The translations under genes were made by a program, and so were the position numbers. Source: Thermus sp. 2.9 (lineage in GTDB: Bacteria > Deinococcota > Deinococci > Deinococcales > Thermaceae). Taken from it: a stretch of 47,653 nucleotides of DNA. The stretch spans positions 1-47,653 of the forward strand of contig NZ_JTJB01000057.1 in the NCBI RefSeq assembly GCF_000794385.1, read 5' to 3'. Within the stretch, counting starts at the first letter, position 1, and each line of letters opens with the position of its first letter. Positions 66 to 47,653 of this stretch are shown in pieces. The notes below the pieces were generated by a model. It searched no databases, was not told the DNA's origin, and was given only the letters and a program-made list of their open reading frames with translations.

Positions 66-2063
66 TTAGTCCCCCACCTTATGGGTGCCCGGGTGACGCA
101 GTTTATCCCACTCCGTCTCGTCTGCCACACTTAGAGGGACCGTCCCCGGGTGGTAAAGCCCCCCTGCGGGCTTGCTGAGCCAGTAGACCTGAGCCACCGC
201 TTGCTCAAGCGGTAGATCGCCCTGGGCCACCTGTATCCGCAAGGCTCGAGGCCATCCCGGATGACCAGGATGAACGAGGAGATACGCCATCTCCGAAGAG
301 GCGAGAAAATAGGTCCCGAGGGGAAGCTTTTTGTGGGAGAAGCGTAGGTTGGTTCGTTCTATCCACACCACAGGGTGGTGGGTCCAAGAGAGGATGTTGT
401 CCAGCGCCTGGCCACTCCCGAGGAAGTGAATCACCAAACGGTGGGGGAGTTCCTCGGTCTTGGGCAAACCGCTCCCCTTGGCGAGGACAAAACCCTCGGG
501 GCTTAGAAGGCGCCAAAGATAGCCTTCGTCGCGACTGGTTCGTAGGCCAAGGATGGGGTGGTCAAGACAGGCCAAGGCATAGGGGACAGCGTTGCAGAGT
601 CTGACCAGGAGGTCGTACGCAAGGGAATGTATGTTTGGCGGAGTCCCCATGAGCGTTTTAGGCTGCACCACCTGGCCTTTGGAGTTAGGGAAAAGGCTCT
701 TCAAGCTCTGGATGAGGCGCTTTAAAGCTTCGCTTCTCACTTCGGCCGGAGCCAGGATCAGGTTGATCTGGGGCTGCGCACCTTTCTCCAGCGTTGTCGC
801 TTCTGAGGGTGCACCACGGGCCACCTCTCCAGTTAGAGGAGCGTACCGAATGGCGGGGAGGAGGAGTTGGAGCTTCACACCCAGTCGCTCCAGTTCTTGT
901 TGGAGGGAATTCTCCCCATTGGCGGGCGTAAAGTGGGCCAGGATTTCCTTACCTTTTTGCGACTTCTCTAAATCCGAGCGCGGCACCAGGTGGTAAAGCA
1001 AAAGCCATCTGGGGTTATAGCTGTGCTTAAGGGTGTGCGCCAGTTTGCCCGAGCGTTGCGGGGGCCTGCCCCGTTCTTGGATCTCTATATGGGTGCTGGG
1101 TTCATATTGGGTAACCGAGGTAACCTCCCCGTTAACTCCCTCGGGAAAGACGGGGCGAATATATAGGCTTTGGGGGGCGCTCAGAAAGCCCAAGCGTCGC
1201 ACCTCCTTCGGTTCCGCAGCCATGCCTTTGGCCATGCGTAGGCCTCGGCCCTCCACCCGAAATAGAGCATCTGTAGGAACGGCGAGGGGCTCGGGTACGA
1301 GGAAGTCTTTAAAAGAGCCCACCTTCCTCAGGAGATCCGCAAAGTCAAACTGGCTCGCCTCAAAAGCCTCTTGCAAGGAAGAACGAAAGCCGCCTTGCTT
1401 CCCTGTAATGCCGAGTTGGCTTAGGTGTCCAGGATGGAGAAGCAGATGGGCTTTGGGCCCGGCTTCTTTCCAATCGGTGGATTTGCCCGTGGCAAGCTCT
1501 ACTGCCTTAAGACGATGTCTAGGGGCGGCCGCCTCTAAGGTGCTCATAACCCCCTTGTCCAGAGCGCCAAGGGGCAGATCGCTGAGAACTTGCTTGGAAA
1601 GGTCCACCAAAGCGTAAAAGATCCCGTCCAAGCAAATGGCTTCTATGGAATAGGCCTGATGTTGCCGAATGGGAAATGGCTTGCCCTGATGGGGGCCAGA
1701 AAGCAGAAAGCCTTCAATGCGTACCCAGTCTTCCGGATCTACCCACAAGCTTCCCGCGCGGTAAAAGCCGTTTTGTTTAAGGATGCGGTTAATGTGGCTG
1801 TTGAGCGCTAGGGTGCGTTCCCGGGTGGAGCTTGCGGGAGCATCCCCTAGGTACTTGGCAGCGACCTCGGGGCGCTCCAAAGCGAAGACCCAAACCTCCT
1901 GTCTCACGATTTGTGCGTACCAACCTTGACTACGAAGGTACGCTATAAACCCCTCAGGGTTTCTGTGTACATAGCGAAAAACGCGTCCATTAGCCGGGTC
2001 CACTTTAAGGGGAAAAAGGTTCACGTAAAGGGGGCTTGCGCTCCATGGTGCCGCGGTACGCAT
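66..2063 (-). CDS. long prokaryotic Argonaute with inactivated PIWI domain
   Basis: A 665-residue protein with pAgo architecture. The N-terminal start (YVNLFPLK, residues 13-20) resembles pAgo N domains. A linker/PAZ-type segment is rich in pAgo signatures (LVDLSKQVL, 152-160). A MID-type segment contains GQVVQPKTL (463-471). A PIWI C-terminus (about 580-655) has the YFLASSEMAYLLVHPG and PRALRI strands. The PIWI catalytic IGID-type motif reads ILGLRTSRD (504-512), with Arg508 where the first catalytic Asp is expected. The VIHRDGR motif is VIHFLGSG (544-551), and only about 30 residues separate the two, leaving no room for the Glu finger. Cleavage is therefore probably lost, as in long-B pAgos that guide or recruit a partner. 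The ATG follows a GGAG site and lies 4 nt after the methylase stop, so the three genes form one operon. G+C is visibly lower than in the neighbours, suggesting transfer. The family call is by eye against known pAgo motifs. Confidence 0.8.
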   Translation of the reverse strand: MRTAAPWSASPLYVNLFPLKVDPANGRVFRYVHRNPEGFIAYLRSQGWYAQIVRQEVWVFALERPEVAAKYLGDAPASSTRERTLALNSHINRILKQNGFYRAGSLWVDPEDWVRIEGFLLSGPHQGKPFPIRQHQAYSIEAICLDGIFYALVDLSKQVLSDLPLGALDKGVMSTLEAAAPRHRLKAVELATGKSTDWKEAGPKAHLLLHPGHLSQLGITGKQGGFRSSLQEAFEASQFDFADLLRKVGSFKDFLVPEPLAVPTDALFRVEGRGLRMAKGMAAEPKEVRRLGFLSAPQSLYIRPVFPEGVNGEVTSVTQYEPSTHIEIQERGRPPQRSGKLAHTLKHSYNPRWLLLYHLVPRSDLEKSQKGKEILAHFTPANGENSLQQELERLGVKLQLLLPAIRYAPLTGEVARGAPSEATTLEKGAQPQINLILAPAEVRSEALKRLIQSLKSLFPNSKGQVVQPKTLMGTPPNIHSLAYDLLVRLCNAVPYALACLDHPILGLRTSRDEGYLWRLLSPEGFVLAKGSGLPKTEELPHRLVIHFLGSGQALDNILSWTHHPVVWIERTNLRFSHKKLPLGTYFLASSEMAYLLVHPGHPGWPRALRIQVAQGDLPLEQAVAQVYWLSKPAGGLYHPGTVPLSVADETEWDKLRHPGTHKVGD

Positions 2064-2067
2064 AGGT

Positions 2068-5000
2068 TCACTCCTCTTTGGATAGCCGTTCCCAAGCTTC
2101 CAGCACGAGCCTCCGGGTGCGGTACTCGCCGTAGCGCTTGATCTCCTTTTCCCTGAGTACCCGGAAGGTTTCCCCGGGGAAGGCGCTGGCTCGGTGGCGC
2201 TTCTGGTAGTGGCGCTCCTCCAGGGGGTCTTCCACCTCCTCGTAATCCGACAGGATGTCGGCGAGCTCCTTTGGCGTGAGGTCCTTGGGGTCCAGGATGT
2301 AGCGGAGTTGCTTGCGGTTCAGGCCGTAGAGCCTGGCGTAGTAGGCGTCAAGCTCGGCCCGGAGGATGGCCCGCCGCTCCTCGTCCCAGCGGAAGGGCGG
2401 GAAAGGGTAGGGGCCCTCTAACCACTCGGGGGGTTCGTCTGGGTGGGTTTTGGCCTTTTCCCGCCAGCGCCCGATGGCTTCCCGGAGGCCCTCGTCCGCT
2501 TCCTCCCAGACTTCCTGGGCGAAAGGCGCCAGGTCCCAGGCGGTGTAGGTGAGTTCCAGGACGCGGGGGACGATGAAGCGGAGGTCTTCTTCCGTGTAGC
2601 GGTCGGGGGGGAGGATGGGGAGTTGCTTCACCACGTGGTATTTAAGATGGGTTCCGCCGATTTTTTGCCGGGTGGCGTAGTCCACCACCAAGGCGTTGAG
2701 GGAGCCCAGTAGGAGAAGAGCTTCCGGGGCAAGGCAAGAAGGAAGCATCTGCAAGAAGGTATCCCCTGCACCCACGCGCGGGTACACGGAGGCGATTAGG
2801 GTGCGCTCGTTAGTGGCATTGGTAATATCCCGCCACCCCATGGACCAAGGGCGCTCCCACCGCCATATCACATTTCCCTGCCTGTCCCTGACCTCGAGGC
2901 GCCCCTCCACCTCTTGAGCCGCCACAAAGTAGCGGGGCAGGGGCAGGCGGGTGGGGTCTTGGTGCTCTTCAGGGGTGAGGTCCCGGGTGTCTTCCCCCTC
3001 GTAGGTGGCGAAGCGGTGGTCGTAGTGCCAAATCATCTTGGCCTCGTAGAGGGGCAGGTAGACCTCCTCGCCCCGCACGAAGCGGTTCCCCACCAGGCGG
3101 AAGCCTTGGGCCAGAAGGGCTTCCTGGGTGCGGAAGAGGTGGGCGTCGTTGGACATGTGAAAGAGCGCCAGGAACCGCACCCCCCAGGGGTTCTCTTCAA
3201 GCCCCTCCCGCCACAGGACGGGCACCCTCCGGTAGACCGCCCGGGTGAGCTCGGCGTCCTGCCGGGTGCGGAAGACGGGGCAGGTCTTGGTGTTGGGGTT
3301 GAGGAGGGCGAAGTCCTCGGGGGCCAGGGAGAAGACCCGGGCAGCGTCCTCCAGGTCCTCGGGGCGGGTGAGGAAGAAGGCGAGGCGGGCGGGCTCCTTC
3401 CCCGGGGGCTTGAGGGCGAAGACGGTGAACTTGTAAGAGCGGTGTACCCCGGGAAAGAGGCCCTCCCGGTTCTCAAAGTCGTAGAGCGCCGCAAGCTCCC
3501 CCCGCTCCACCACCTGGGCGAAGAACTCCTTGTTGGAGTCGTCCGTGGCGATGCCCGTGGGCAGGACGAGGCCCGCCCTTCCCTGGGGGGCCCGGAGGGC
3601 GCGGGCCAGCTCGGCGAAGAGGGGATAGGTGTTCACGTCCCCTCGGGCGGTGAGGGGAAAGCGCCCTGAGTGGCGCACGAACCCCGAGACCGCCTCGGCC
3701 TCGGCCAGGGCCTCCTGGTAGGCCCGGAAAAGCTCGGGGTTTTTCTCTTTTAGGGCCTGGATGAGGCGCTTGCGCTTGGCGGCGTTCTCCGCCTGGGCGA
3801 TCTCAGGGGCCTTGTCGGCGAAGAACTCCTTGTCCTGGAGCTTCAGCTTCTCCCACGGCGGGTTCCCCAGCACCACGTCAAACCCGCCCTTCTGGAAGAC
3901 ATCGCGAAACTCCAGCCACCAGTGGAAGAAGCGGTGGCGGCGCTTGGCGGCCTCTATAGCGTGGCGGGTGGGCGGGGAGAGGTAGGAGCTTCCCTCCCAC
4001 TGGGCGAGGGAAGCCCCCATCTGCTGGGCGAGCCAGTTGAGGCCCTGGGCGTCGGGGAGGCGCACCCCGGGGGTGGGCCGGAGGAAGAAGGCGGCGGTCC
4101 AGTAGTCGGCCAAAAGCTCCCACTTCCGCACCTCCTCGCTCTCCCGCCACGCCCGGTAGCGCGCCCGCTTCTCCTCCACCTGGGCCGCGTTCTCCTCCTC
4201 AAAGTCCAGGAAGGGGGGTTTGAGGAGGGGGAAGAGGAGGCTTCCCGCCCCGGGGCCGAAGCTGAGCCCCTTGCGCACCTCCTTGGGCACGCCCTCCCGG
4301 TCGTAGGCCTCCTTGGGGATGCCCCGCGCCAGGAAGTCCTCCGGGGCCCCCACCAGGGAGTTCCCCACCTTCAGGTGGTGGTCCAGGAAGGAGAGGGGCT
4401 TGCCCTTGGCGGCGGAGGCCACCCAGAGGGCGAGCTTGGCGAGTTCCACCGCCATGGGGTTCAGGTCCACCCCGTAGAGGCACCGGGAGGCCACCAGGTG
4501 GCGGGCGGCGTAGAGGGCCTCCAGGTCGTCCTTCCCCTGGCCCCGCACCTCCAGAAGCTTCTCCGCCAGGTACTCCAGGGCCGAGATGAGAAAGGCCCCG
4601 CTTCCCATGGCCGGGTCCAACACCTTGAGGGAGAGGAGGGCCTCTTCCTGCTTTTTGGGGTCCTCCCCGGCCTCCCGGAGGCGGGCCTCCACCACGGGGA
4701 CGAGGCTTTCCTGCAGGACCAGCTGGACGAGCTCCCGCGGGGTGTAGTAGCTTCCCGAGGCCTTGCGCTCCAGGAGGTGGCCCTCCAGGGTGTAGCGCCC
4801 GTCCACCATCCTGGGGGCCAGGGAGAGGATGCCCTCGTAGACGTGGCCGATCTCCTCCACCTCGAGGTCCCGGTAGTTGATGCGCTCCAGGGCCCCTTCC
4901 CGCTCCACGTGGGTGAGGAGGCGGATGGCCCGGAGGAGCTCGCCGTTCTTGGGCCGGGGGAGGTCAGGATGGAGGGCCCGCTCCCCGGGGTCCAGGACGC

Positions 5001-6072
5001 CCCCCGTGAGGAGGGGAAGCCCCTCCGGGGCGAAGAGCTCCCCGTTCAGGGCGGGCACGCCCAGGCGTTCGTCCCCCCGGTAGACGAGGCGGAAGGTGGC
5101 GAGGAGCTTTTCCCAGAGGTCGGTGTGGCGGTCTTCGTACGCCACCAAGAGGTCCTGGCGGGAGGCCTTTTCCCTGAGGGCGCTCACGCCGTACTCCCGC
5201 TCGTAGACCCAGGAAAGCTCCCCCCCGTGGGGGATGAGGTCGCGGCTTTCGGCGTAGAGGAGGAAGAGGAGGCGGTAGACGAGGCGGAGGAGCTCCTCGT
5301 GGTAGGCCCTGAGGTGCTCGGGGTCTTGGAGCTTTCGCCGCAGGTCCTCGGTGAGGAAGGCGTTGCCCAGGACCTCGAGGGCCTCCACCACCCCCTTGCG
5401 CAAGGCGTCGCGGGCCTTGATGCCGCTTTGGCGGGCCGCTTCGTAGTAAAGGTCCAGGGGGGTATTCTCGCCGTTACCTTTTTGGAAGCGGCTAGGGGAG
5501 AGGAGAAGGAGGAGGATTTGGAACTCCTTGAGGGCTTGTTCCCGAGGGGCCTCAAAGAGCTCCACCAGGTTGAAGGCCACGTACCCCGGAAGGGAGACGT
5601 GGTAATACTTCCGCAAAAGCCGCACCTCCCAGGGGGCCGCCAGGATGCCCCAGCTTTGCGTGGGGTGCAGGTTGAGGTAGGTCTGCAAAAGGGCCTGCGG
5701 GCTCTTTTCCCTGCGGCTTGGCCGTAGGTCTAGCTCGGTGGCCACCAGGTGCAAGGGTGGGGCATCCTCCCCGTCCCAGCCCCGGTGGCTGATGGGGAAG
5801 GACTGGTCCCCCGCCGCAAGGTGGCTTCGGTTGAAGACGGGCTGGAAGCCCAGGGCGCGGAAGAAGGGCAGAAGCCAGGACTCCCGGGCCCGGGAGGTGT
5901 CCCTAAGTTGGGATAAGGGCGGCTGGCGCTCGTAGAGGCTCAGCAGGGCGTAGAAGCGGTGCCGCACCTCCTCAGGGGTCAGGGCGAGCTCCTTGAGGGC
6001 CTCGAGGCGGGTCAGGCTTTGCAAGAACTCCTCGGTGAAGAGGCCGCCGGAAACGCGTATGGCGTGGAACAC
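2068..6072 (-). CDS. large N6-adenine DNA methyltransferase (DrmMI / Eco57I-like)
   Basis: About 1334 residues. Numbered from the upstream in-frame TTG at 6078 (two codons earlier), it has YYTPREL at 445-451, the SAM-binding motif DPAMGSGAF at 488-496, a VDLNPMAVELAK segment (537-548) and the catalytic NPPW at 739-742. This is the gamma-type N6-adenine methylase order, followed by a long target-recognition and C-terminal region. The N-terminal 200 residues include a segment ending WGILAAPWEVRLL, similar to the N domain of type IIG/ISP enzymes where a PD-(D/E)xK nuclease normally sits; I see no convincing catalytic Lys. The start is placed at GTG 6072 because the AGGAGG site is 6 nt upstream; the TTG at 6078 directly abuts that site. 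The gene begins 12 nt after the helicase stop. Its likely role is self-marking or target sensing for the same defence operon. DrmMI of class 1 DISARM is the closest known analogue. Confidence 0.85.
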   Translation of the reverse strand: MFHAIRVSGGLFTEEFLQSLTRLEALKELALTPEEVRHRFYALLSLYERQPPLSQLRDTSRARESWLLPFFRALGFQPVFNRSHLAAGDQSFPISHRGWDGEDAPPLHLVATELDLRPSRREKSPQALLQTYLNLHPTQSWGILAAPWEVRLLRKYYHVSLPGYVAFNLVELFEAPREQALKEFQILLLLLSPSRFQKGNGENTPLDLYYEAARQSGIKARDALRKGVVEALEVLGNAFLTEDLRRKLQDPEHLRAYHEELLRLVYRLLFLLYAESRDLIPHGGELSWVYEREYGVSALREKASRQDLLVAYEDRHTDLWEKLLATFRLVYRGDERLGVPALNGELFAPEGLPLLTGGVLDPGERALHPDLPRPKNGELLRAIRLLTHVEREGALERINYRDLEVEEIGHVYEGILSLAPRMVDGRYTLEGHLLERKASGSYYTPRELVQLVLQESLVPVVEARLREAGEDPKKQEEALLSLKVLDPAMGSGAFLISALEYLAEKLLEVRGQGKDDLEALYAARHLVASRCLYGVDLNPMAVELAKLALWVASAAKGKPLSFLDHHLKVGNSLVGAPEDFLARGIPKEAYDREGVPKEVRKGLSFGPGAGSLLFPLLKPPFLDFEEENAAQVEEKRARYRAWRESEEVRKWELLADYWTAAFFLRPTPGVRLPDAQGLNWLAQQMGASLAQWEGSSYLSPPTRHAIEAAKRRHRFFHWWLEFRDVFQKGGFDVVLGNPPWEKLKLQDKEFFADKAPEIAQAENAAKRKRLIQALKEKNPELFRAYQEALAEAEAVSGFVRHSGRFPLTARGDVNTYPLFAELARALRAPQGRAGLVLPTGIATDDSNKEFFAQVVERGELAALYDFENREGLFPGVHRSYKFTVFALKPPGKEPARLAFFLTRPEDLEDAARVFSLAPEDFALLNPNTKTCPVFRTRQDAELTRAVYRRVPVLWREGLEENPWGVRFLALFHMSNDAHLFRTQEALLAQGFRLVGNRFVRGEEVYLPLYEAKMIWHYDHRFATYEGEDTRDLTPEEHQDPTRLPLPRYFVAAQEVEGRLEVRDRQGNVIWRWERPWSMGWRDITNATNERTLIASVYPRVGAGDTFLQMLPSCLAPEALLLLGSLNALVVDYATRQKIGGTHLKYHVVKQLPILPPDRYTEEDLRFIVPRVLELTYTAWDLAPFAQEVWEEADEGLREAIGRWREKAKTHPDEPPEWLEGPYPFPPFRWDEERRAILRAELDAYYARLYGLNRKQLRYILDPKDLTPKELADILSDYEEVEDPLEERHYQKRHRASAFPGETFRVLREKEIKRYGEYRTRRLVLEAWERLSKEE

Positions 6073-6084
6073 CCACAACCTCCT

Positions 6085-8838
6085 TTAGCTCGGCACAGGG
6101 GCCAAGAGGGTGATGGCGAGCAGCTCGGAGCCCAAGACCTCCAGCTGGTCTAGGGCTTGGAAGGCCTGGGGCAGGACGCCGTAGGCCCGTTCTAGGTCCC
6201 GCTTTAGGGCCGTTCGTTCGGCCTTTACCCGGGCCAAGGCTTCCTCGGCTCCCCGCTTCCCTAACTCCTCCAGGGGAGCCTTGAGGGCCCGCTCGGCCAA
6301 AGCCTTGGCCTGGTCCTGGGCGAGGGGGCGTGCCTTGAGCCGGGCGCGCCAAAGGGCTTCCGCCTCCTCGGGGGGGAGTTCGCTTAGATCCAAAAGGCGC
6401 ACCGCCCGGCGCACCAGGGTTTCCAGCACCTCGCCGCCCGGTCCGGCGAAGCGGGCCCGGTAGTGGTAAAGGGCGACAGGGGGGGTACCCAGGGGGCCGG
6501 GAAAGGCCATGAGGGCGGTGCGGGCCCCGTCCAGGTCCCGGTAGGCCCGGTAGCGCAGGTGGGCTATCAGGTGCTCCACCAGGGGATGGGAGAGGTCCAG
6601 CACCTCCACCCCCAGGGGCGCTTCCGGATGGAAGCTGAAGGGGCCAAAGGCGTTGGGCAACCCGGGCACCGCTTCCCCCGTGCCCCGGGTGGCGGTGTAG
6701 GGGTCTTCCCCCTCCACGCGCCAGCCCAGGTAGCGGAGCCCGTCCAGGACGAAGGCTTGCAAGACCTGGGGACTCCCGGCCCGTTCCAGGGCTTCTTGAA
6801 GGCGGCGCTCCACGTCGGGGAGGCTAAACTCGCTGTGGCCGTAGAAGCCTTCCTGGATGGCCTTCTTTGCCGCCTGCAGCTCTGTGGCCTCTTCCTCGGC
6901 GAAAAGGGGGGTTTGCAGCCGCCGTTCGCCCCGCCAGTCCTGGGACCACAGGGCCTCGAGGCGGCGCCGCAGGTAAGCCTCTTCCCCGAAGAAGGCGGGT
7001 ACCACCCCCAGTTCCTTGCGGATGCGCTCCGCCTTTTCCAGGAGGAGGCGGAAGACGGCCACGTCAAAGGAGCGTTCATAGTAGAGGGTCCGGATGCGGA
7101 CCACGGGCTCGGGTTGACCGAAGCGGTCAATCCGCCCGTTGCGCTGCTCCAGGCGGTTGGGGTTCCACGGCAGGTCGTAGTGGACCAGCTGGGCCGCGTA
7201 GTGCTGCAGGTTGAGGCCTTCGGAGAACACATCCGTGGCCACCAAAACCCCCACCTGCTCCTTGGCGAAGGCCTGGAGCACCTCGTTGCGTTCTTCCTCA
7301 TCCATCTCCCCGTGCACGGCGAAGACGGGTTGGGGAATGGTCTCCCGAAGCTTTTCCACCAAGTATTCCAGGGTGTCCCGGTAGCGGGTGAAGATCAGGG
7401 TCCGGCCCTTCCCGAGCCGTAGCGGGTCCTGGAGCATTTCCCGTAGGACCTCCAGTTTGCTGTCTTTGCGCCAGGTCTTCAAGTGGCGGAGGAGGGCCTC
7501 GAGGTAGCCCTTTTCTGCCTGGGCTCGGGCTTGGTCCGCCAAGCTAAGTTCCAGGCTGGCCTCCGCTTCCTCGGGCAGCAAGCGCTCCGGCGCGGTGTCA
7601 AACAGGGCCGCCACCTCGTCGGCGGTGGCGTCCATTCCCCCGGCCAGGACGCTTTCCAGGAGGGCCTTACGCCGTTCCAAACTCCTTTGCAACGCCCGGG
7701 GGGAACTGGTGGCGCGGCGCATCAGGTGCATGGCGAGCCAGCGCCCGAGAACGGGCACCTTGGCCGGGTCGGGGTCGTAAACCTCCGCTTGGTAGCGGCG
7801 CACCGCCTCAAAGAGTTCCAGCTCGGCGCGGTTGGGCTCCACCGCCACCTCCTTGGTGTCCCGCTCCGGGAAGGGGCTTTTTTTGCCTTCCTTGCGGAAC
7901 CACTCTTCCACGTCCTTTCGGCGGCGCTGCACCACGTGCTTCTTGGCCGCTTCCCGGTCCAGGCTTCCCCCTTTGAAAAGCCCCAACCCCCGGGCGTCCA
8001 GGTGTTCCAGGAGGCTATAGAAGCTTTCCGTGTAGCCGTTGTGGGGCGTGGCGGTGAGGAGGAGGAGGTGGGGCACCCGGCGGGAAAGCTCCCGTACCAG
8101 GCGGTAGCGCTCCATCTGCTTGCCCTTTTCCGTGGGGGGGCGGGCGGCCATGTGGGCTTCGTCCACCAAAAGGAGGTCCCAGTCTTGCAAGAGGACCAGG
8201 TTCCGGACCTCGTCCTGTTTGGCGTAGTCCACGCTGGCGATGACCCGGTCAAAGTGGGCCCAGGGGTTTGCTCCCGGGGGGAGGGTGCGGGTGAGGCGCT
8301 TCAGGTTGGGCCCGGATAGGATTTCAAACTCCAAGTGGAAGAAGCGGCGGAGCGCCTCTTGCCACTGGGCGAGGAGGTGGGCTGGGGCCAGGACCAAGAC
8401 CCGTCGGGCCTTGTTCCGCAGAAGGAGCTCCTTCACGATGAGGCCCGCCTCCACGGTTTTGCCTAAGCCCACGTCGTCGGCGATCAGGAGGCGCACCTCC
8501 GGCAGCCTCAGCGCCATGAGCAAGGGCACGAGCTGGTAGTTGGCGGGGACCACCCGCGAGCGCTGCAGGGCCAGGAAGGGGGCGTCGGCGTGGAGGGTGG
8601 AAAGCTCTAGGGCCCGGAGGAGCAGGTCGTGCAGGGCGGGATCCCCAGGGGTGGTGGGGGGAAGCCCCAAGGAGGTGAGTTGGAGGGCTTCCCCTTCCAG
8701 CGGGAGGTAGAAGAGGGCTTCCTCATCGGTGTCCACGGCGCGGGCAAAGAGCACGTCCCCGTGCCGGCGTTCCAGGCGGTAGTCGCGGCCTCGAGCCCGA
8801 AACAAGGTCCCGGGTTGGAAGGAGTCCACTGGGTTCAC
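6085..8838 (-). CDS. SNF2-family helicase (DrmD-like), first gene of defence operon
   Basis: A 917-residue SF2/SNF2 ATPase. The Walker A motif is DDVGLGKT (121-128), the Walker B motif is DEAH (226-229) and motif III is LTATPHNG (261-268). The C-terminal RecA lobe has LIFTRYRDT (481-489), VATDVFSEGLNLQ (533-545) and the arginine-finger motif QRNGRIDRFGQ (565-575). Residues 1-100 and the 300 after the helicase core are family-specific extensions. It presumably translocates on double-stranded DNA and works with the methylase encoded immediately downstream; SNF2-type DrmD next to an adenine methylase is the signature pair of class 1 DISARM. The start is GTG with an AAAGGAGG site. The 163-bp gap upstream separates it from the TRAP operon, so it probably has its own promoter. 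It could also be a helicase of another restriction-like system, and the drmA/B/C genes are not seen in this window. Confidence 0.88.
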   Translation of the reverse strand: MNPVDSFQPGTLFRARGRDYRLERRHGDVLFARAVDTDEEALFYLPLEGEALQLTSLGLPPTTPGDPALHDLLLRALELSTLHADAPFLALQRSRVVPANYQLVPLLMALRLPEVRLLIADDVGLGKTVEAGLIVKELLLRNKARRVLVLAPAHLLAQWQEALRRFFHLEFEILSGPNLKRLTRTLPPGANPWAHFDRVIASVDYAKQDEVRNLVLLQDWDLLLVDEAHMAARPPTEKGKQMERYRLVRELSRRVPHLLLLTATPHNGYTESFYSLLEHLDARGLGLFKGGSLDREAAKKHVVQRRRKDVEEWFRKEGKKSPFPERDTKEVAVEPNRAELELFEAVRRYQAEVYDPDPAKVPVLGRWLAMHLMRRATSSPRALQRSLERRKALLESVLAGGMDATADEVAALFDTAPERLLPEEAEASLELSLADQARAQAEKGYLEALLRHLKTWRKDSKLEVLREMLQDPLRLGKGRTLIFTRYRDTLEYLVEKLRETIPQPVFAVHGEMDEEERNEVLQAFAKEQVGVLVATDVFSEGLNLQHYAAQLVHYDLPWNPNRLEQRNGRIDRFGQPEPVVRIRTLYYERSFDVAVFRLLLEKAERIRKELGVVPAFFGEEAYLRRRLEALWSQDWRGERRLQTPLFAEEEATELQAAKKAIQEGFYGHSEFSLPDVERRLQEALERAGSPQVLQAFVLDGLRYLGWRVEGEDPYTATRGTGEAVPGLPNAFGPFSFHPEAPLGVEVLDLSHPLVEHLIAHLRYRAYRDLDGARTALMAFPGPLGTPPVALYHYRARFAGPGGEVLETLVRRAVRLLDLSELPPEEAEALWRARLKARPLAQDQAKALAERALKAPLEELGKRGAEEALARVKAERTALKRDLERAYGVLPQAFQALDQLEVLGSELLAITLLAPVPS

Positions 8839-44650: not shown

Positions 44651-44663
44651 ATGGTCGTGTAAG

Positions 44664-45851
44664 GAATTATGTGTATGGGTTTGTGTAAAAAAGGGGGGGT
44701 ACAGGAGCCATACAGGAGGTACCCCATGGACCCGTCTACCCTGCAAGTCCTGCTACGGGAAGCGGTGAAGGAAACGGTGACCGAGGTGCTCCAGCTCCTC
44801 CTGGAGGCGGACCGGGACGCCTTTCTCCGGCAAAAGGGCGGGCGCGAGAACGGCCACTACCCCCGCAGGTTGGAGACCGCCTTCGGCCAGGTGGAACTGG
44901 CCATCCCCCGGGATCGGGAAGGGCGGTACTACCCCAGCTTCCTCCGCTATCGCGGGGACTCCGTCAACCAGCCCTACGCCCGCCGCCAGGTGGACGTGGG
45001 GGAGGTGGCGGTGGCCTTGTACGCCGCCGGGGTCACCCAGCGCAAGGCGGCGGAGGTGATGAGCCTCCTCCTGGGCCACCGCTACACCCACGAGACCAAG
45101 GGCGCCATCACGGACGAGGTGCTGGAGAAGGCGGAGGCCTTCCGGGGGAGGCCCTTGCCGGAGGAGGAGGTGCTGAGGGAGGGACTTGGGGTGGAGCGGG
45201 TTGCTTTGCCCGAAGGGCAAACATCTTGGATCCGTGTACGTGGCCCTTGGGGTGACGCCGGATGGGGCGCGGCGGGTGCTGGGCTTCTGGCTTTTGCCCA
45301 CGGAGAACGCCTTAGCCTGGGAGGGGGTTTTGCGGGAGCTATGGGAGCGGGGCCTGCGGCGGGTCTTGCTTTTCCTCACGGATGGGCTTCCGGGTATAGA
45401 GGAGGCCATCCGGCGGGTGTATCCCCTGGCGGAGTGACAGCGGTGCGTGGTGCACCAGGTGCGGGGGAGTTTGAGCCAGGTGCGGTCTCGGGACCGGGCT
45501 GCCCTGGCCCAGGACCTGCGGGGGGTTTACATGGCGGAGAGCCGGAGGGAGGTTTGGGGGGGCAAGTATCCCGCTTTGGTGGCGGCCTGGTGGAAGGGTG
45601 CTTTGGCCGTACTTGCGGAGCACCAACCTCATGGAGCGGTTGATTCGGGAGATCAGGCGGGGGACGAAGGTGCGGGACCACAAGTTTCCTCGGCCGGAGG
45701 CGGTGTTCAAGCTTTTGTACTTGGAGGGGGAGCACTTGGAGGGGAGGTGGGGGGAGCGAAGGCTGAAAGGGTTTGCCGAGGCGCGGGAGGTGTTGGAGCG
45801 GATGCTTCAGGAGCGGTATGCCCCCCGTACACAGACCTTGACACATAACTC
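44664..45851 (+). mobile_element. IS256-family insertion sequence, degraded
   Basis: Imperfect terminal inverted repeats of about 24 bp bound it. The left end begins GAATTATGTGTATGGG and the right end, reversed, begins GAGTTATGTGTCAAGG; both then read TGTGTA. The 1.19-kb length is slightly under the usual 1.3 kb, consistent with an internal deletion. No target-site duplication was found by eye in the 9 bp at either end. Confidence 0.75.
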
Positions 45852-45855
45852 TTGA
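44726..45855 (+). pseudogene. IS256-family (mutator) transposase, broken
   Basis: Intact N-terminal half: ADRDAFLRQKGGRENGHYPR, AFGQVELAIPRDREGRYYPS and AGVTQRKAAEVMSLLLGH. Near 45190-45230 the frame shifts and the segment carrying the first catalytic Asp is missing. Another frame continues with VYVALGVTPDGARRVLGFWL and LFLTDGLPGIEEA (second Asp), then meets TGA at 45435 where family members have Trp or another residue before QRCVVHQVR. A further frameshift near 45598 leads to STNLMERLIREIR (catalytic Glu region) and EAVFKLLYL. At least two frameshifts and one stop make it non-functional. Confidence 0.85.
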
Positions 45856-45903
45856 CATGACCTCCACCGTCCTGAAGGGACCTTTCATGGTGTTTCGCAA
45901 TGG

Positions 45904-46024
45904 CTACCGAAACCGGTAGCGCCCATCCTTCAGATCTGCCATCTTCCCCCGGGTCCGCCAAACCCGGAAGTTGTTCTCCGCCCTGGCCTTGGACTGGCCA
46001 AGGTGTTCCTCCAAGAAGGAGATG
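45904..46024 (-). pseudogene. C-terminal fragment of a small gene interrupted by the IS982-like element
   Basis: The minus strand encodes ISFLEEHLGQSKARAENN then FRVWRTRGKMADLKDGRYRF and a stop, with coding-like residue use, and begins exactly at the left end of the IS. If the IS is removed, the same frame continues from the right flank (IKYPVLQRF), giving one open frame across the junction. No family recognised. The stretch 45856-45903 between the IS256-type element and this fragment shows nothing. Confidence 0.4.
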
Positions 46025-46892
46025 CCTTCGTGTGCTACTTGATCTGAAGCCCTGGGGTGTGAAAAAAAGGGGGGTGCTATGGAAGCTGACCGCGAGCACC
46101 CCCGGAACATAGCCTCCGGCTGACTTACTATCTTGACGCGGAAACCCTCCTGGTCGCCACCTACCGCTGGGTAGACGACACCTTAAAGGCCCTCCAAGCC
46201 CAAGGCATTAAGCTCCCCAAGAGCCAAAAGCATCCAAAGGCTACCTCGCCGCTAAGGTCACCCTCCGCGCTTACTTCCCCTCTCTCCCCCACCTCTCCCG
46301 CTTCCACCCGGCGCTCAAAAACGCCCATTCCCTTTTGGCCCACCTCGCCCAAACCCTGGCCGGGGGAGAAGGCTTGCGCAAGCTACGGGCTTCGCCCGTG
46401 ACCCAGGGGGTGGACCTCAAACCCATCCCCTTAGCCCACGGCCACCGCGTCCACCGCTTCTCCCTTCCCGAGTCCGCCGTGGGGGTGGGGCCCTTGGGAG
46501 CCTTCGCGGGCTACGTCTTGGTGGCGGTGATGAACGAGAGAGGCCTGTTTCCCAAGGTGTTCCCCTGACGGGGAAGCGGCCGCTTTGGCCTCCTGCCCGG
46601 CAACGCTCGGGAGACTTGGGGGGAAGCGCTTTTGCTTGGGCTTCCCGTGGTCCTGGGGGACCGGGGGTTTCGCTGGGTCCGGGGGGTGAGGAACTGGATA
46701 GAAACCCGCTTCAGCGTGATGGCGCGCTCTTTGGGGTTTCATCGGGTAGAGGCCAGGTCCTTCTGGGGTCTTTGGGGGCGGGTGAACCTCATCCGCAAGG
46801 TACGCTATCGCGTGACTTTGGCGCACAACCTCATCCGGAGCCGGATCCTTCTCAGGATGGCGGGGGTGGGGATTTGAGGTAGCACACGAAGG
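46025..46892 (+). mobile_element. IS982-like insertion sequence, degraded
   Basis: Both ends carry the 14-bp inverted repeat CCTTCGTGTGCTAC (46025-46038 and reverse at 46879-46892). The 868-bp body holds a broken transposase. A 43-bp piece of a second copy in the opposite orientation lies at 44608. No clear target duplication is visible (left flank GAGATG, right flank AATCTT). Confidence 0.75.
46079..46877 (+). pseudogene. IS982-like transposase, broken
   Basis: Recognisable blocks are in different frames. DAETLLVATYRWVDDTLKAL sits near the start. YFPSLPHLSRFHPALKNAHS is followed by KPIPLAHGHRVHRF, PLGAFAGYVLVAVMNERG and LFPKVFP, then a TGA at 46566. A third block starts LPVVLGDRGFRWVRGVRNWI with ETRFSVMARSLGFHRVEA and TLAHNLIRSRILLRMAGVG. 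The D...D...E order (VDLKPIP, LGDRGF, WIETRF) fits a DDE transposase of the IS982 type. Frameshifts and a stop abolish function. Confidence 0.7.
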
Positions 46893-47141
46893 AATCTTTG
46901 TAAGACCGGATATTTTATCCGAGCGCGTAACCTCCCTACTGGGGAAATACCACGTTCTTTGATGCGCCAGAGGCCCTCGGGGCTTCCTGCGTCACGGCCC
47001 AGACTCGGGCCGGGGAGCTCCGGGTGATGGCCTTGGCCGAGAGAAGGGCGGGGAAGGTTTTTGCCCCCCATCTAGATGGGAACCTGGAGGCGCGGATTAT
47101 CATGGGGGCGAAAGCCCCTAGGCGTGGGAGGTGGGGAAAGA
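46893..47141. other. unassigned stretch between the IS982-like element and the repeat gene
   Basis: On the plus strand about 46949-47140 an open frame with high G/C third positions reads EALGASCVTAQTRAGELRVM then ALAERRAGKVFAPHLDG, which may be a gene remnant but has no clear start or family. On the minus strand the segment next to the IS continues the interrupted small gene. Both cannot be fully real. GGAGGTG near 47128 is the ribosome site of the next gene. Confidence 0.3.
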
Positions 47142-47653
47142 ATGGAGGAAGCGGCCCTGAACAACCTGGATTGGAACACCAAGCGGGAACTGGCGGGAAA
47201 CCCGGGCACGCCCCCAGAGGTTCTCGACATCCTGGCGGGGGATGAGGACTGGAGGGTGCGTCGGGCGGTGGCGGAGAACCCCAGCGCGCCCCCGGAACTC
47301 CTCGAGCGCTTGGCGGGGGATGGGAAGTGGCGGGTGCGGGAGGGGGTGGCGAAAACCCCAACGCGACTCTAGAGATCCTCGAGCGCCTGGCGGGGGATGA
47401 GAGTGAGGCGGTGCGGGGGGCGGTGGCGGAGAACCCCAATACGCCTCCCGAAACCCTCGAGCGCTTGGCGGGGGACGAGAGCGGGGAGGTGCGGGAGAAG
47501 GTGGCGGAGCACCCCAACCACGCCTCCAGAACTCCTCGAGCGCCTGGCCGGGGATGAGTTTTGGCGGGTGCGGAAGAGGGTAGCGGAAAAACCCCAACGT
47601 TTCCCCGGGACTCCTCGAGCGCTTGGCGGGGGATGAGAGCGAGATGGTGCGGG
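47142..47653 (+). pseudogene. LRV-type leucine-rich repeat-variant protein with indels, partial at window edge
   Basis: ATG 47142 follows GGAGGTG. A short cap (MEEAALNNLDWNTKRELAG) is followed by tandem 26-residue units of the form NPxTPPExLERLAGDExxxVRxxVAE, the leucine-rich-repeat-variant pattern of stacked helices. The frame is broken three times: a one-base deletion near 47350-47353, and one-base insertions near 47516-47519 and 47587-47591. Each repair restores perfect repeat consensus. The gene is therefore either decaying, mis-sequenced in short homopolymers, or slippage-prone. It continues beyond the window. Such proteins act in protein-protein contact; the role here is unknown. Confidence 0.7.
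47199..47653 (+). repeat. 78-bp coding tandem repeat (at least 5.8 units)
   Basis: Unit starts at the Asn codon lie at 47199, 47277, 47354, 47432, 47510 and 47590, so spacing is 78 bp except where single-base indels occur (77 and 80 bp). The most conserved block encodes LERLAGDE. The array runs off the right edge. Confidence 0.85.

Follow-up and report, generated by a model that had tools for sequence, protein, structure and literature searches.

A gene of regular repeats lies at the right-hand end of the window, the 47,653-nucleotide stretch of Thermus sp. 2.9 DNA analysed here, and its reading frame is broken. Has the gene decayed in the organism, is it intact in the cell and broken only in the assembly, or does it vary its product by changing frame?

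Identity and extent of the repeat array

The array gene occupies positions 47142..47653 on the + strand. It starts at ATG 47142 with a partial N-terminal unit, continues as units of 78 bp, or 26 residues, and is still open at the contig end; an alternative in-frame start is ATG 47076. The window is the entire contig C57 of a 62-contig, 2.40-Mb genome, and its right limit, where the array runs off, lies where it does because the contig ends there. As assembled, the reading frame ends after 76 codons from ATG 47142, or 98 from ATG 47076. TRF found a period of 78 with 5.2 copies (score 412), and the Pfam LRV profile (PF01816) matched two frame pieces of the array with E=2.6e-17 and 1.5e-15, which rules out a chance repeat. 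The corresponding scores, 62.4 and 56.8 bits, lie above the cut-off of 21.6 and, together with a relative in Meiothermus luteus whose LRV protein matches 1lrv_A (E=2.3e-9), bear out the identification as LRV that had been made in an earlier, sequence-only reading of this DNA. Both the LRV family and 1LRV, its relative of solved structure, are already known. Judged by these matches, the window carries the 5′ portion of a gene whose predicted product is an LRV solenoid, an elongated scaffold for protein binding. The product is related to PDB 1LRV, and the fold is predicted from that sequence relationship.

A long open antisense frame also spans the array (window 46936-47652, - strand), probably as a side effect of high GC. 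A plasmid origin was not backed, as 46880-47653 had no match in the plasmid collection. PF01816 was found in 26 of the 111 genomes of the phylum, and in the genus in only Thermus sp. 2.9 and, as a weak match, in G020. Few genomes of the genus therefore have LRV (2 of 27), and its loss is evidently tolerated. The M. luteus array forms one open frame of 360 aa. Its gene likewise lies near a contig end (L129:1-460), and to the eye the DNA immediately upstream of it seems to hold a transposase fragment and an LRV-like remnant.

Frame changes within the array

When the array was translated in three frames, the units passed from frame to frame. Three frame changes were called on the + strand both by a profile frame tracker and by a codon-usage HMM that has no knowledge of LRV. 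The first (-1) lies at 47352..47353, in a run of four As, the second (+1) at 47516..47519, at a CC pair with no longer run, and the third (+1) at 47586..47589, in a run of five As; the HMM placed its three shifts within 47142-47653 near 47350, 47528 and 47611. Three breaks had been proposed in the sequence-only reading, and the two methods uphold all of them. Their placement at short homopolymers holds for A4 and A5 and fails for the middle break. The units had also been described as perfect in each frame; they are regular, with 7 of 92 residues at conserved columns departing.

The LRV profile was made of 17 units from eight relatives. The three breaks in the window stayed in place at frameshift penalties of -10 and -14, and no shift was called in the 1080 bp of the M. 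luteus array, which had itself supplied 8 of the 17 profile units. Six Meiothermus-type arrays that are long and diverged drew between 9 and 21 false shifts from the tracker, and L126 drew 2. Because of these many false calls the tracker is weak evidence by itself, and more weight rests on the codon HMM and the translations. The training set of the HMM was 19 long open frames from the window. Of 44 unmodified 512-bp pieces taken from these same frames, it reported shifts in 2; once three indels had been simulated in such pieces, it reported two or more shifts in 41 of 44 (pfs 0.003). A coarser first version called no frameshift inside the array, scoring the first break as the end of a gene and the last part of the array as non-coding. 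Coarse codon modelling also gave frame-change junctions at window 24412 and 40781, which may be ordinary gene overlaps.

As the assembly stands, the frame is broken where relatives are open, as in a pseudogene. In all 47 related loci among the matches listed, the LRV match lies wholly in one open frame (171-1072 aa), a count that rests on tblastn, which favours intact frames.

Continuation of the array on a second contig

When this genome was searched at the DNA level, further array was found only at C58:4-211, besides a 33-bp match on C39 that sits within another open frame, and Pfam LRV matches in the genome are confined to the ends of C57 and C58. The array resumes at the left end of C58 and extends from C58:1 to ~215. 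Because it begins there within a unit and on the same strand, the two contig ends very likely belong to one array, to judge from the sequence. We infer that C57 and C58 are adjacent. No exact sequence overlap joins the two ends. On C58 the tracker called shifts at 41-42 and 67-70 at both penalties, and one at 200-203, likely the third there, at -10 only; its other calls lie past the end of the regular units. The better HMM missed the C58 shifts because it chose an antisense frame there (C58:1-190).

Beyond the array, C58 carries a non-coding stretch, a TROVE gene, small genes (one of the YbjN family), and genes for a MoxR-type AAA protein, DUF2201 and a PD-(D/E)XK nuclease. The distance from the 3′ end of the array to MoxR/DUF2201 is about 3.3 kb, with TROVE between. 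The TROVE (Ro-like) gene followed by the YbjN-like, MoxR AAA and DUF2201 genes spans 727-6135 of this locus (L119, on C58). TROVE occurs in 13 of 50 genomes of the family and in 6 of 27 of the genus; in G020 a Mutator-type transposase match lies ~0.4 kb from the TROVE gene. A search for Y RNA beside TROVE in 7 loci gave no Rfam match at gathering score. PADLOC returned no match for the LRV, TROVE, MoxR or DUF2201 proteins submitted, and weak Cas4 matches only for the PD-(D/E)XK gene of C58.

Probable recent decay and possible sequence error

We think it somewhat more probable than not that the LRV gene decayed recently by real single-base indels. Successive single-base indels, carried by the organism itself as well as by the assembly, would have broken the gene in a region full of dead insertion sequences, and its 3′ part would now stand on C58. 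Two broken transposon remnants lie within 2.5 kb to the left of the array, and frame-broken genes beside insertion sequences are common. One is a decayed insertion-sequence remnant with a broken frame at 46020..46897 (+ strand), with 19-nt terminal inverted repeats that are 95% complementary. Related fragments on contig C36 show 90-96% identity, and comparison with them gave 49 substitutions and 3 gap openings. The other, at 44653..45866 (+ strand), is a frame-broken Mutator-type transposase, which we take to be IS256-like, with Pfam Transposase_mut matches in two different open frames.

The alternative that survives best is that the gene is intact in the cell, and that low coverage or a poor consensus where assembly failed left single-base indels at both ends. 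We regard this as a serious possibility, though short of a probable one. The array is divided between two contig ends, and exact repeats of up to 26 bp inside it could break short-word assembly. No shift is farther than about 300 bp from one of the two contig ends, which counts against decay, although the array reaches just 512 bp inward. Damage in the array consists almost only of single-base indels. There is no stop in 212 codons, and the departures at conserved columns noted above compare with 6 of 121 in the intact M. luteus array (p=0.57). The relaxed substitution constraint of a pseudogene is thus not seen, and the decay is therefore either recent or not real. Clean substitutions with many indels are also what sequencing error resembles.

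The same pattern also resembles the spectrum of mutations that has been measured in Thermus, as given in the available part of PMC2688765. For T. thermophilus that text reports a genomic indel rate of 0.00038, or 0.00013 without a hotspot, with 46 of 54 indels being single-base, and a substitution rate of 0.00054 that rests on two chain-terminating mutants. At these rates six indels predict about 8-25 substitutions. Such a load is compatible with the clean array, because simulated loads of 10, 20 and 30 substitutions (400 runs each) gave no stop and no more than six departures with P of 0.72, 0.49 and 0.19, respectively. Old neutral decay was rejected, as the array is too clean for loads of at least 60 substitutions (P 0.005 at 60 and 0.000 at 98). 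The load of 98 is that expected in the array at the 49:3 ratio of the insertion-sequence remnant, a ratio that mixes in older divergence, including time under selection; it was matched in 0.000 of 400 runs, so the ratio, taken at face value, would speak against real decay. If the indels are real, the array is a natural case of the indel-heavy Thermus mutation spectrum acting on a dispensable gene.

Sequence error was also weighed against the rest of the assembly. At other contig ends the HMM (pfs 0.003) called at least three shifts in 0 of 36, at least two in 3 of 36 and any in 10 of 36, the 36 ends being sampled from the 62-contig genome and both ends of C62, a 3,565-base contig, overlapping; in interior pieces of the assembly any shift was called in 7 of 36. 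Contig-end noise across the assembly is thus not backed, and we lean towards recent decay because the other contig ends are not broken like the array. Mis-assembly of a tandem repeat should moreover join units in register, by multiples of 78, and not produce one-base shifts. Also against error, breaks occur in the neighbouring mobile elements as far as 3 kb inward, the nearer of which has diverged from its relatives. Decay and error therefore survive from the three explanations offered in the sequence-only reading, with decay favoured, and the third, repeat-driven variation, is unsupported.

Phase variation and recoding as unlikely explanations

That third explanation, in which repeats or homopolymers would drive phase variation and yield different truncated forms, we consider very improbable. 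It draws on the short A runs at two of the three window breaks, but where a phase-variable gene has a long simple-sequence tract at its switch, the tracts here are A4, CC and A5 only, and runs of at least four As occur 46 times in the 29,241 bp of the window's 19 long open frames. According to the portion of PMC1088944 available, the length prone to slippage is nine A or T in a large share of bacterial genomes. Gain or loss of units, in multiples of 78 bp, would keep the frame, and several breaks would need to switch jointly. It is likewise highly doubtful that the array serves as a variable scaffold for recognition within a MoxR-DUF2201(-TROVE) RNA/protein remodelling module and is switched or diversified in this lineage by frequent single-base indels, with frame states differing among the cells of one population. 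Least credible of all is recoding, by which transcriptional slippage or ribosomal frameshifting would restore the product: Thermus dnaX does use transcriptional slippage at nine As (same portion of PMC1088944), but no run near nine A or T occurs within the array, several events of both signs would be required in about 720 bp, and the 47 relatives among the matches listed need none.

The MoxR-LRV-DUF2201 neighbourhood

MoxR and DUF2201 lie beside LRV in 9 of 11 Thermaceae loci (L121-L128, L130), the 11 being mostly strong PF01816 matches of the phylum search. The gene order is MoxR-LRV-DUF2201 in seven loci, all from genus g4, which we take to be Meiothermus; it is LRV-DUF2201-MoxR in L126 (genus g2) and LRV-MoxR-DUF2201 in L130 (genus g4). 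Neither partner was present in the stretch fetched for the weak G020 locus or for the M. luteus locus, whose left side is mostly out of view because the contig ends close by. Outside the phylum, among the 47 matches listed, a DUF2201-like gene was near LRV in 2 and MoxR in 1. A Spartobacteria locus (L087) likewise has the trio of MoxR, LRV and DUF2201, and an Azoarcus locus (L063) has LRV with DUF2201. Some viral contigs of IMG/VR, 100-180 kb long, also contain LRV repeats, with open frames of 189-194 residues in 3 of 12 loci (L212, L215, L216); neither a DUF2201-like gene nor MoxR was found near LRV in these 12 viral-contig loci. A jumbo phage study (PMC7824862) reportedly mentions both TROVE and MoxR.

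The neighbourhoods of the relatives suggest that the intact ancestor would have been a binding partner of the MoxR-DUF2201 pair. An LRV gene that is broken as assembled matters little on its own; a more useful by-product is that the MoxR-LRV-DUF2201 neighbourhood recurs among Thermaceae, since this recurrence points to a function for an LRV family. No publication was found that combines the LRV phrase with MoxR or TROVE, DUF2201 was absent from the 10 papers listed out of 189 in a further literature search, and in the accessible text of PMC7159879, on MoxR-vWA conflict systems, LRV and DUF2201 are absent and HEAT repeats appear once.

Comparison with known systems

The array resembles known LRV proteins (PF01816; PDB 1LRV) in its 26-residue unit and in scoring over the cut-off of the LRV profile, and differs from them in being frame-broken and divided between two contigs. 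With the Meiothermus-type LRV genes (~890-935 residues) it shares the repeat family, and MoxR (AAA_5) and DUF2201 are also found on C58. In the Meiothermus-type loci, however, MoxR, LRV and DUF2201 are adjacent and open, whereas on C58 TROVE and small genes separate the LRV remnant from MoxR-DUF2201. For many of the bacterial frameshift singletons in the GeneTack survey, error and indel mutation were inseparable (PMC3711429, in the part available). The present array is like those singletons in that its frame breaks have no conserved site among relatives, and unlike them in having five or six shifts in one array.
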